Shown here: positions 139-33,950 of the stretch, piece after piece
Position numbering within the stretch: position 1 is the stretch's first letter
Layout of the letters: each line of letters begins with the position of its first letter
Source: an uncultured Eubacterium sp.
Lineage (GTDB): Bacteria > Bacillota > Clostridia > Lachnospirales > Lachnospiraceae
Assembly (NCBI GenBank): GCA_947089855.1
Contig: CAMUML010000044.1
Location: 1 to 34,548, forward strand
DNA length: 34,548 bases
Direction: 5' to 3'
Notes under the pieces: generated by a model
Seen by the model: the letters and a program-made list of their open reading frames with translations, nothing else
Told to the model about the DNA's origin: nothing
The model's database searches: none
Program-made: the position numbers and the translations under genes

Positions 139-166
139 GAAAGTGGCATACCATATAGAAAACAAG

Positions 167-310
167 ATTACTATTCACGGGCCAGGAAGGCGCATAAACT
201 GCGCATTCCGTGAGAACATGATTCAGGAGTGAGGGGCGATTTTGCGAAGCAAACTTTCAATATCGCCCCGAATTGTTACTGTGAGCGGCCCCCAGGCCGT
301 GAATCGTAAC
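167..310 (+). mobile_element. MITE-like element, subfamily A, copy A1
   Basis: This 144-bp non-coding element is about 95% identical by eye to the copy at 32340-32483. Its ends are inverted repeats of the GTTACTATTCACGG type (the first base is A here). It is flanked by a perfect 8-bp direct repeat, AAAACAAG, at 159-166 and 311-318, which marks insertion by transposition. Inside are three hairpins: GGAATGCGCA-type arms near 187-211, GGGGCGAT/ATCGCCCC arms near 235-278, and a right-end hairpin GTTACTGTGAGCGGCC...GGCCGTGAATCGTAAC. The conserved core TGATTCAGGAGTGAG lies between hairpins one and two. It encodes no transposase. It separates the promoter at 85-113 from the gene at 347. Confidence 0.85.
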
Positions 311-346
311 AAAACAAGTATGGCTGCCCAAAATCAGGTGAAAAAC

Positions 347-8403: not shown

Positions 8404-8484
8404 ACGCTCCCATCCTTCCTGTCATATGTCATACTGGCTGCCCTCCTGTACCCATCCATGCAAGCTGGACGGCGGCACTTTAAT

Positions 8485-8659
8485 GTTACTATTCACAGCT
8501 AATTTTCTCTTGACAAACATTCTAAGTTATGAAGCTGTAAATAGTAACATTCGCAGGCTCATTTAAAGAATTTGCCTTGCAAATTGGAGCCTGCTCACTC
8601 CTGAATCAGCTTGGCAGCCACCTGGACAGCGGGGTGTCCAGGTGGCTGTGAATAGTAAC
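8485..8659 (-). mobile_element. MITE-like element, subfamily B, copy B1
   Basis: A 175-bp non-coding element whose minus strand matches the element at 14582-14757. Perfect inverted ends are GTTACTATTCACAGC and GCTGTGAATAGTAAC. The flanks are 8-bp direct repeats with one mismatch, ACTTTAAT (8477-8484) and ATTTTAAT (8660-8667). Hairpins include CAGCCACCTG/CAGGTGGCTG and a GCAGGCTC/GAGCCTGC arm pair, with the core TGATTCAGGAGTGAG between them. The right flank repeat covers the stop codon of the lepB gene at 8663, so the insertion was at the very end of that gene, inside an apparent operon. It has no coding capacity. Confidence 0.82.
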
Positions 8660-8662
8660 ATT

Positions 8663-9256
8663 TTAATGCAGCAGCCCGATCTTATCCCTTGGCGCTGTTA
8701 CAAACCAAACCCTTCCGATAATATATGACTCCTTCACGTTTCCTATATTGGCAAACCTGCTGTCCTCGCTGTTGCTGCGGTTATCCCCTAAAACAAAATA
8801 TTCATCTTCGCCCAGCGTGACCTGCTTTTGTGCCGTACCGGCATCTTCAATACTGGCAACTACAGTATCTGGGCCTTCTTCAAACGGCTCCCCGTTGACC
8901 AGCACTTCCCCATCTATAATCTGCACCGTATCCCCCGGCACGCCGACAATCCGTTTCATATAATAATGGGTATTGGTATTGCCATTTGGCAGAAACGCAA
9001 TCACATCCCCAGGCTTTGGCGATATAAATTTATACGAAAAACGGTCAATCAGCACCTCATCCCCGTCTTCCAGCTGCGGCGACATGGAAGGCCCGACCAC
9101 ATTGGAACGGACTCCGAAAAAAAAGGTAAAGACAGACGCTATCGCAATTGTAATTATAATTTCCGCCGTCCAGACAAGAATTTCCTGAAACAGCGGCAAG
9201 TTTACCTTCCGCTCCCGTTTTTTACCAAAATTAAGCCCTTTGACCCGTCTCCTCAT
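8663..9256 (-). CDS. lepB: Signal peptidase I (first of two)
   Basis: A 197-residue type I signal peptidase. A basic N-terminal tail (MRRRVKGLNFGKKRERK) precedes one membrane segment at about residues 27-48. Catalytic Ser57 is in GPSMSPQ and Lys101 in YYMKRIVGVPGDTV; GDNRSNSEDSR is the conserved C-terminal box. AGGAATGGGG precedes the ATG. Upstream is the rplS terminator, so it probably has its own promoter in the 9257-9335 gap, though none is clear by eye. Its stop codon lies within the duplicated target site of the mobile element at 8485-8659. Confidence 0.93.
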   Translation of the reverse strand: MRRRVKGLNFGKKRERKVNLPLFQEILVWTAEIIITIAIASVFTFFFGVRSNVVGPSMSPQLEDGDEVLIDRFSYKFISPKPGDVIAFLPNGNTNTHYYMKRIVGVPGDTVQIIDGEVLVNGEPFEEGPDTVVASIEDAGTAQKQVTLGEDEYFVLGDNRSNSEDSRFANIGNVKESYIIGRVWFVTAPRDKIGLLH

Positions 9257-14551: not shown

Positions 14552-14581
14552 GTATTTTTTCTTTACAATAGATGCTTGACT

Positions 14582-14757
14582 GTTACTATTCACAGCCACC
14601 TGAGCACCCCGCTGTCCAGGTGGCTGCCAAGCTGATTCAGGAGTGAGCAGGCTCCAATTTGCAAGGCAAATTCTTTCCATGAGCCTGCGAATGTTACTAT
14701 TTACAGCCTCATAACTTGGAATATTTGTCAAGAGCAAATTGGCTGTGAATAGTAACG
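14582..14757 (+). mobile_element. MITE-like element, subfamily B, copy B2
   Basis: A 176-bp non-coding element with perfect inverted ends GTTACTATTCACAGCC / GGCTGTGAATAGTAAC, flanked by a perfect 8-bp direct repeat GCTTGACT at 14574-14581 and 14758-14765. It folds as three hairpins: CAGCCACCTG/CAGGTGGCTG; GCAGGCTC...GAGCCTGC with an inner ATTTGC/GCAAAT; and a right module GTTACTATTTACAGCC...GGCTGTGAATAGTAAC that is itself bounded by the same end motif. TGATTCAGGAGTGAG lies between hairpins one and two, as in subfamily A. It sits between the divergent ylxM and marR promoters. Confidence 0.87.
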
Positions 14758-14871
14758 CTTGACTACCTCCACGTGCTTTTATCCGGCTGGTTTTCTTTGG
14801 TGTTGCCTGGATTTCGGGATATGCCGTGGCAAAGTAGTAGGCTGGTAGTTAAAAAAAATTCCAATCCCTTA

Positions 14872-32027: not shown

Positions 32028-32339
32028 TATTTTGTGGGAATTGGTATAATATTTTAAATATAATTTCCTGCTACGTTTTCATTATCAACACATAATGCAA
32101 TTTAATTTCGATTTGTAATCTGTTCTACCTCAAAATCAGAAATAAGTTTGAATGCGTTATTTACGTCCGCCAATTTTGGCGAATGTTTCTTATACGTTCA
32201 ATATTTAAACACTAAAATAAAGGCACTGCCAACTGTATTTCTGCAATCAGCAAAGCCTTTATGCTAATGTCTAAATTATTTGCATCCTGTCAAAACGTAT
32301 GTTCTCCTTTCCTGTTATATAAGCCTTGACTGATGCCAG
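32028..32339. other. AT-rich stretch without genes
   Basis: No coding frame with a ribosome site is seen. There is a small CGCCA/TGGCG hairpin near 32168-32183. A longer hairpin (ATAAAGGC...GCCTTTAT) at 32215-32265 has a weak T-run on the minus strand, so it may end a small unknown transcript. Confidence 0.4.
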
Positions 32340-32483
32340 GTTACTATTCACGGGCCAGGAATGCGCATAAACTGCGCATTCCGTGAGAACATGATTCAGG
32401 AGTGAGGGGCGATTTTGCGAAGCAAACTTCCAATATCGCCCCGAATGGTTACTATGAGCGGCCCCCAGGCCGTGAATAGTAAC
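32340..32483 (+). mobile_element. MITE-like element, subfamily A, copy A2
   Basis: A 144-bp non-coding element with inverted ends GTTACTATTCACGG / CCGTGAATAGTAAC, nearly identical to the copy at 167-310. A perfect 8-bp direct repeat GATGCCAG flanks it (32332-32339 and 32484-32491), showing insertion. Its three hairpins are GGAATGCGCA/TGCGCATTCC, GGGGCGAT/ATCGCCCC with an inner TTGC/GCAA, and GTTACTATGAGCGGCC/GGCCGTGAATAGTAAC; the core TGATTCAGGAGTGAG is intact. It lies between the two small-transcript modules. Confidence 0.88.
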
Positions 32484-32521
32484 GATGCCAGATTAGGATA
32501 AAATATTTGAATAAAAGCACA

Positions 32522-33832: not shown

Positions 33833-33950
33833 GTTACTATTCATGGCCCAATGAATGCCATTTATTGAAGAAATGCCTAACCAGGAATGCCGTTAATTGT
33901 GGCCTCCCGGCCGCCCACTCCTAATCATGTTCTCACGGAATGCGCTAGTA
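33833..33950 (-). mobile_element. Degenerate MITE-like element, subfamily A-related, copy C
   Basis: The left edge reads GTTACTATTCATGGCC, the family end with one change. Further on, CACTCCTAATCATGTTCTCACGGAATGCGC (33912-33942) matches the reverse complement of the A core and first hairpin arm with one base missing. The expected outer end GTGAATAGTAAC after that is not recognisable, and no flanking direct repeat can be found. It is an old, decayed or truncated copy upstream of the metA promoter. Confidence 0.6.

Follow-up and report, generated by a model that had tools for sequence, protein, structure and literature searches.

Bacterial MITEs are in general short, have inverted ends and target duplications and occur as near-identical copies, and the small elements described here resemble them in each of these respects. 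IS66 is mentioned nowhere in the main text of a review of prokaryotic MITEs (PMC10969869), and the available portions of PMC3189936 and PMC9769881, both of which list IS66 elements, describe no IS66 MITE; the corresponding portion of PMC8024623 lists ISBst12 copies and nothing further. In the ISBst12 group of IS66, ISDge4 has the ends GTGACTACTCAGCA/GTAACTGCTCAGCA and an 8-bp repeat, as given in the accessible part of PMC12898284. Our own literature search for the 12-base end of the present elements returned unrelated plant work only, and one combining MITE, Lachnospiraceae and transposase returned nothing related.

The elements were found in a stretch of 34,548 nucleotides, the whole of which is here called the window. 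Its source genome (G000) comprises 4.08 Mb in 101 contigs and is 89.7 percent complete. Taking the evidence as a whole, we consider it likely that these are MITEs which an ISBst12-group DDE transposase mobilizes in trans, with a three-hairpin plan, a fold that is probably selected and one hairpin, H2, that may be an RNA motif. This would give a likely parent family (ISBst12/IS66) to a mobile repeat that is very abundant in a genus of gut Lachnospiraceae.

Window elements and their mobility

Four elements were read directly in the window: A1 and A2, each of 144 bp, and B1 and B2, each of 175 bp (Table 1). Some lie beside genes that we take, by eye, to be lepB, rbgA, ffh and ylxM. The first base of A1 is mutated from G to A, so that this copy starts ATTACT. 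The target duplications of A1 (AAAACAAG/AAAACAAG), B2 (GCTTGACT/GCTTGACT) and A2 (GATGCCAG/GATGCCAG) are perfect 8-mers, while that of B1 (ACTTTAAT/ATTTTAAT) matches at 7/8 positions. A preliminary description of this DNA had reported the 8-bp duplications at all four elements and the absence of a transposase within them, and direct reading agrees on both counts. Its coordinates also stand for three of the elements; for B2 it placed the right end at 14757, and the true end is 14756, giving 175 bp. Beside the tRNA cluster, at 33833-33949, lies a fifth A-type copy that is decayed: its left end matches at 83 percent over 30 bases, and its core and H1, which are reversed, show 94 percent identity across 35 bases.

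Table 1. Positions of the four elements, their parts and their flanking duplications in the window
Feature	Position	Strand
Target duplication AAAACAAG, left of A1	159..166	
Element A1, 144 bp	167..310	+
H1 hairpin of A1	185..209	+
Linker CGTGAGAA and core TGATTCAGGAGTGA of A1	210..232	+
H2 hairpin of A1, with 8-nt 3' bulge	233..269	+
H3 of A1, formed by the right end and the internal end copy	275..310	+
Target duplication, right of A1	311..318	
Target duplication ACTTTAAT, one side of B1	8477..8484	
Element B1, 175 bp, in lepB-rbgA gap	8485..8659	-
64-bp H3 part of B1	8485..8548	-
H2 hairpin of B1	8553..8594	-
Target duplication ATTTTAAT, other side of B1	8660..8667	
Target duplication GCTTGACT, left of B2	14574..14581	
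Element B2, 175 bp, upstream of ylxM-ffh	14582..14756	+
H1 hairpin of B2	14594..14625	+
Core TGATTCAGGAGTGA of B2	14633..14646	+
H2 hairpin of B2	14647..14688	+
64-bp H3 part of B2	14693..14756	+
Target duplication, right of B2	14757..14764	
Target duplication GATGCCAG, left of A2	32332..32339	
Element A2, 144 bp	32340..32483	+
H1 hairpin of A2	32358..32382	+
Linker and core of A2	32383..32405	+
H2 hairpin of A2: stem GGGGCGAT, inner TTTGC-GAA-GCAAA, bulge CTTCCAAT	32406..32442	+
H3 of A2, formed by the right end and internal GTTACTAT	32448..32483	+
Target duplication, right of A2	32484..32491	

The exact 15-base end GTTACTATTCAYRGC occurs in 184 copies in the source genome compared with 0 for the reversed control, an abundance far beyond chance. 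At least 40 near-full A copies were found there, with identities of 97-100 percent, when 40 of 219 candidates were scored, and this near identity suggests recent activity. The same end was present in 7/12 congeners and in 1/18 other genomes tested, and a scan of IMG/VR with a 16-base end returned 11 stretches (L294-L304) with one match apiece. Repeat copies lie within the first 120 bases of five contigs (C11, C15, C16, C24 and C26), so that the repeats seem to break the assembly, a practical matter for genomes of this kind.

Sequence was read around 30 A copies and around 97 of 100 ends listed out of the 184. These loci hold at least 65 distinct insertions with an 8-bp duplication containing at most one mismatch, and the duplicated insertions measure 63-64, 143-145, 160, 164, 175, 206, 266, 327 and 407 bp. 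Among the complete A-length copies in the own-genome loci read, 48/59 had a duplication of 6-10 bp (36 perfect 8-mers, 7 at 7/8, 3 of 9-10 bp and 2 of 6-7 bp) and 11/59 had none. The B-length pairs had a duplication in 13/16 cases, one of the three misses being a mispairing with a nested A end. Perfect 8-bp duplications flanked 4/8 of the 64-bp units standing alone, and duplications were seen at 2/3 of the 160-bp elements and 3/5 of the 266-bp elements, where one miss belongs to a nested 407-bp unit. Insertion with an 8-bp duplication is established by these counts. In the insertions at L035, L039 and L185, judged by eye, a short run of additional bases (on one side, AAT or AAC) parts the duplicated flanks from the ends, as if the cut had been offset.

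Nested and empty sites were also found. An A copy lies within a B copy (L041, 1501-1827) with TTGACAAA on each side, and excising it together with one TTGACAAA leaves a 175-bp B element that has 170/175 letters in common with B2. The site of B1 was examined in ffh-region loci where both lepB and rbgA were found (34 of 80 fetched, one genome per species), and it was empty in 34/34, the lepB-rbgA gap measuring 5-100 bp vs 262 bp in the window. Both the removable nested A copy and the short gap in relatives are thus evidence of empty sites. The mobility claimed by the preliminary description is confirmed by the duplications, the nested insertion and the empty orthologous site. It had asked for further copies in the source genome and for empty sites in relatives, and had named as contrary outcomes a lack of either or of covariation; many further copies, an empty site at every testable ortholog of the B1 locus and covariation (see below) were all found.

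Several copies are composites. Those of 266 bp (L044 1250-1515, L050 1250-1515 and L148 2767-3032) consist of an A element with a palindrome of ~115 bp (AATGTCATT...AATGACATT) inside its left end, and the three different 8-bp duplications at these loci indicate that the composite moves as a unit. In L034 (1210-1515) and L186 (2453-2616), palindromes (TAGTACACCGTAAAATAAATAAC... and TATACTGCAG...) are nested in an A and a 64-bp element.

Element ends and the candidate parent

IS66 transposases were sought in the genus, and the flanks of 30 fetched loci were checked for ends. One locus, L206, holds a 2314-bp IS66-type element with GTTACTTTTCACACCCACGCCAG at both ends and a 7-bp duplication, AACAGGA. 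Its protein of 575 aa matches PF03050 with 43 bits (cut-off 23) and the NCBIfam IS66 model over nearly its full length with 120 bits, below the cut-off of 180. Related transposases occur in 10/299 family genomes (E <=1e-30) and also in G004, and the elements that carry them have ends such as GTTACTGTTCA, GTTACAGTTCA, GTTACTTTTCACGGGG and GTAACTGTTCAG. Among 26 loci examined, eight distinct IS66-type elements (L206, L247, L254, L221, L226, L230, L234 and L239) combine GTTACT, GTTACA or GTAACT ends with 7-8-bp duplications; others had ends without duplication, or one end only, and ends of this kind were absent from seven loci of this genus whose IS66 transposases belong to other groups. ISBst12-type elements of Lachnospiraceae have GTTAC/GTAAC ends and 7-8-bp duplications.

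The A and B ends are of the ISBst12 type (GTTACT[T/G]TTCA, GTAACTGTTCAG, GTAACTGCTCAG), and the length of their duplication, 8 bp, fits as well. The preliminary description had stated that the ends do not clearly match IS66, a statement that no longer holds for the ISBst12 group. Sibling 160-bp elements in the source genome share 16 end bases, GTTACTTTTCACACCC, with the L206 element, and a 58-bp copy in L027 shares 22 bases with it at one end; the A and B ends match those of L206 over the first 12 bases only, with one mismatch. On the strength of the end type, the duplications and the ends that the 160-bp elements and L027 have in common with L206, we assign the mover to the ISBst12 group, and the parent of A and B is best assigned, from sequence comparison, to ISBst12-type IS66 transposons.

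A search for a transposase gene bounded by the same ends, which had also been suggested, found none bounded by GTTACTATTCAC[A/G]GCC among the loci inspected from 13 congeners. Likewise, no IS66-type element with an identical A/B end was present in the loci from the 10/299 family genomes with a match. In the incomplete assembly of the source genome, the search for an autonomous partner with the same ends gave fragments only: a 66-aa piece akin to the L206 transposase, and four IS66 matches that are broken. Apart from those in G004 and G005, the other matches to these transposases in the genus are fragmentary too. With 90 percent completeness and with contig breaks at these very repeats, the assembly may have missed an autonomous copy. 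As no transposase with the exact A/B ends was found, it is by inference that we attribute movement to an ISBst12-type enzyme. We propose that a DDE transposase of this group would recognize GTTACT-type ends and act in trans on A and B, with insertion at an 8-bp stagger. The right end could be used with either the left or the internal end, which would yield a full-length element or a 64-bp unit.

Two other candidates were discarded. ISL3 was rejected as parent, PF01610 having 0 matches in the own genome, and a 2024-bp candidate in L181 has flanks without duplication and an ORF that is, by eye, hemerythrin/response-regulator-like, with no transposase. Separately, contig C13 of the source genome carries a 2007-bp unit (L183, 1102-3108) with IS66-like ends (GTTACTTTTCACGGGGTAGGG/TTTACTTTTCATGGGGTGGGG), the flanks CTGGTATT/CTGGTATC and a 434-aa ORF without significant match to the L206 or L249 transposase; this unit is possibly a mobile cassette. 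A 590-bp element in G008 (L276, 1240-1829) has the ends GTTACTTTTCATGGGG and a perfect duplication, TACAGATC, and probably derives from an IS of the L249 type.

Hairpin plan and constraint on the fold

A single plan is common to A and B, the 160-bp family, a family of 145 bp in G008 and, in G009, an old copy (L305): end, H1, linker (CGTRAGAA), core, H2, internal copy of the end, H3 and end. The loop of H1 is bounded by CA and TG. In H3, which has two ends of its own, the right end is paired with the internal end copy (GTTACTAT). The H3 unit of B measures 64 bp, and such units are also found alone. The core TGATTCAGGAGTGA can pair with the left end; this pairing is nearly perfect in the G008 family and weak in A, where 90.7 percent of cells are paired and double changes are absent. 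Thus the conserved blocks that the preliminary description had called unpaired are partly complements of the ends, GTTACTAT pairing with the right end and TGATTCAGGAGTGA, weakly, with the left.

The same description had portrayed the hairpins as modules that differ completely between A and B. The modularity is upheld by L315 and L316, which are the same at 90/99 positions from core to H3 and at 18/31 in H1 (ungapped counts), the H1 of L316 being A-type; this pattern indicates that modules have been exchanged. The complete difference is not upheld, as H2 keeps its inner hairpin and 8-nt bulge in both A and B. In G299, a rearranged copy (L353, ~373-411) has H1 and the linker after H2 in reverse, unlike its siblings.

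Covariation was assessed in two main sets. The A-type set contained 16 elements from five species, 15 of them distinct, and was scored against the three hairpins plus the core-left end pairing. In this set 97.2 percent of cells were paired, and double-change cells numbered 16 vs 6.2 in shuffled and at most 1 in slid controls. These double changes were confined to H1 (3 pairs) and H3 (1 pair), and pair types were not in excess (15 vs 16.8 shuffled). The second set comprised 12 H2 hairpins from 5 element families, one row of which came from a descriptor demanding stems. Here pairing reached 99.4 percent, 11/13 pairs had double changes, and the covariation score was 0.952 vs 0.273 shuffled and at most 0.279 slid. 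What is conserved in H2 is the inner hairpin together with an 8-nt one-sided bulge, mostly CTTTAAAT-like, while the stems change in step. Bulge positions 2, 7 and 8 have the same letter in 40/40 hits of the H2 model, and the inner loop is GNA in 33/40 aligned hits. Compensating changes exceed the controls in the A-type set (pair types excepted), in the H2 set and in a further H2 alignment (A3) that was fitted to its own model.

A descriptor of stem, inner hairpin and 8-nt bulge gave 139 hits in 1.7 Mb of fetched loci, counting overlapping loci more than once, vs 1 in the reversed control. Of these hits, 136/139 adjoin GTTACT ends; the other three are an A-type H2 without a recognized end, a member of the L305 family and a hit in L102 that is probably due to chance. 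The folds are conserved: in H1 and H2 the two sides of a stem change together and the fold persists, so it is probably under selection. The selection on shape that had been suggested earlier is in line with the constraint found in A-type elements and H2. These results point to inner hairpins of transposons that are kept for shape and not for sequence, with the same hairpin found in gene leaders.

H2 outside the elements and comparison with known systems

A model of H2 (R1) identified hits in 56/397 family genomes and 50/334 genera (E <=0.01), lower bounds given the strict filters. In a phylum-wide draw, R1 was found in 2/398 genomes (E <=0.001), both from the same family. By reading, 30 R1 loci divided into 20 IS66-type elements of the same plan and 10 that were not. 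Of the 20, 18 were in other genera, and L310 and L329 had an end missing. Among 23 loci tried, 8-bp duplications were found in L308, L315, L322, L324 and L352 and a 7/8 match in L331, and the automatic search found none at the other 17.

The remaining H2 hairpins, which we call leader-type, stand mostly after a hairpin and CGTAG or ATGCAGC and before TCTC or GTTC. The leader-type set was made up of 26 loci, namely the 10 above and 16 more that were drawn from four of these genomes. Downstream in sense, 15/26 of these loci have both an ORF start and a Shine-Dalgarno-like site, compared with 0/26 in antisense; the loci come from few genomes (8 from G355, 6 from G216) and so are not independent. 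The distance to the start was 21-33 nt in 14 of the 15 and 60 nt in one. The same count for IS66-ended elements gave 1/22 in sense and 0/22 in antisense, and, when made beyond the element ends, 1/22 and 2/22. The placement in sense before start codons thus argues for RNA in leader-type loci and not for H2 inside mobile elements. Units before start codons (L307, L312, L318, L326, L333, L334, L336-L338, L341, L342, L344 and L346-L348) are alike within a genome, and their stems differ between genomes. In L317 and L335, leader-type H2 units occur in tandem.

Because H2 stands in sense before Shine-Dalgarno-like sites in other Lachnospiraceae, we treat it as a candidate RNA motif, and the evidence favors selection on H2 that would act on RNA. 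Whether H2 might be read at the RNA level by a host factor, and be carried and spread by the elements, is a more tentative matter, and we regard this as plausible without leaning toward it. Somewhat more doubtful again is the full proposal that H2 (stem, inner GNA-type hairpin and 8-nt CTTTAAAT-like bulge) would be an undescribed Lachnospiraceae RNA motif with a dedicated host factor. In this proposal it would act as an mRNA leader immediately before Shine-Dalgarno sites and would also be the cargo of a modular MITE superfamily, driven by IS66, by which RNA modules are dispersed and recombined through genomes. If a factor does bind H2, regulatory RNA parts would be distributed by small transposons as their vehicles.

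The strongest alternative is that the fold is selected as single-stranded DNA, its hairpins acting in replication or transposition and being read by the transposase or another DNA protein, with RNA irrelevant. This would suit the GNA triloop of the inner hairpin (33/40), as GCGAAGC, of GNA type, is reported to be extraordinarily stable in DNA. It would also suit H3, which pairs the right end with an internal copy and whose 64-bp relatives move alone, so that hairpin ends may matter. DDE transposases act on duplex ends, however, and a role in DNA alone does not account for the bias of 15/26 sense vs 0/26 antisense before start codons or for the match of L321 to GA-cis, an RNA whose hairpin 1 has the layout of H2. 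We therefore consider selection as single-stranded DNA unlikely, if the most serious competitor. Selection on the fold might instead be lacking altogether, the elements being ordinary palindromic MITEs whose hairpins arose by insertion of nested palindromes and whose remaining similarity reflects common descent. Nested palindromes are indeed common (composites of 266, 164, 306 and 407 bp, and one A in B), and the H2 model hits were chosen for pairing. Nevertheless, unrelated H2 stems keep 8 outer pairs, the inner hairpin and the 8-nt bulge in five families and across genera, three bulge positions are constant (40/40), and the replacement of both stem strands in step is not explained by descent alone, all of which makes this reading improbable. 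Least credible of all is the view that these are REP-like elements and that a Y1 (RAYT/IS200-type) transposase moved them. In leader-type copies the H2 stem often follows GTAG or GCAG, reminiscent of the guide tetranucleotides of REP. The IS66-ended elements, however, carry inverted repeats at their termini and are flanked by 8-bp duplications, and Y1_Tnp (PF01797) was found in 6/15 genomes tested and is absent from several H2-rich ones (e.g. G216 and G200); Y1/RAYT is not supported as mover of the leader-type units.

We return to the reading of the elements as MITEs of probable ISBst12 origin with an H2 that may be an RNA motif. The known RNA closest to H2 is Rfam GA-cis (RF02987), whose hairpin 1 has an outer stem, an inner stem and an 8-nt unpaired 3' strand, as H2 does. 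The leader-type locus L321 matches GA-cis above the gathering score and was the only match at E <=1 among 13 loci searched. In contrast, the window elements give no gathering match to it (in the window, only tRNAs do so for any family), and GA-cis lacks IS66 ends. A literature search pairing 'GA-cis' with 'RNA motif' found nothing.

Pneumococcal BOX elements are built modularly. Judging by the portion of their description available, they are, like the window elements, small stem-loop repeats that cluster and insert into one another; the host differs, and the likeness is one of description. With the ISBst12 group, such as ISDge4 as far as the accessible text describes it, the window elements have in common the end type GTNACTNNTCA and the 8-bp duplication. 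L206 carries one long transposase with a DDE_Tnp_IS66 domain, with a relative in L249, whereas the window elements are 144-175 bp long, have no transposase and agree with L206 over approximately the terminal 12 bases. They are also not a simple internal deletion of any IS found here. With terminal inverted repeats, target duplications, many dispersed copies and no transposase gene, they belong with the MITEs. Unlike MITEs in general, they keep a three-hairpin plan across several sequence families and genera, in which a bulged hairpin is conserved and the end is repeated internally, and they are a new, modular variant of this class.
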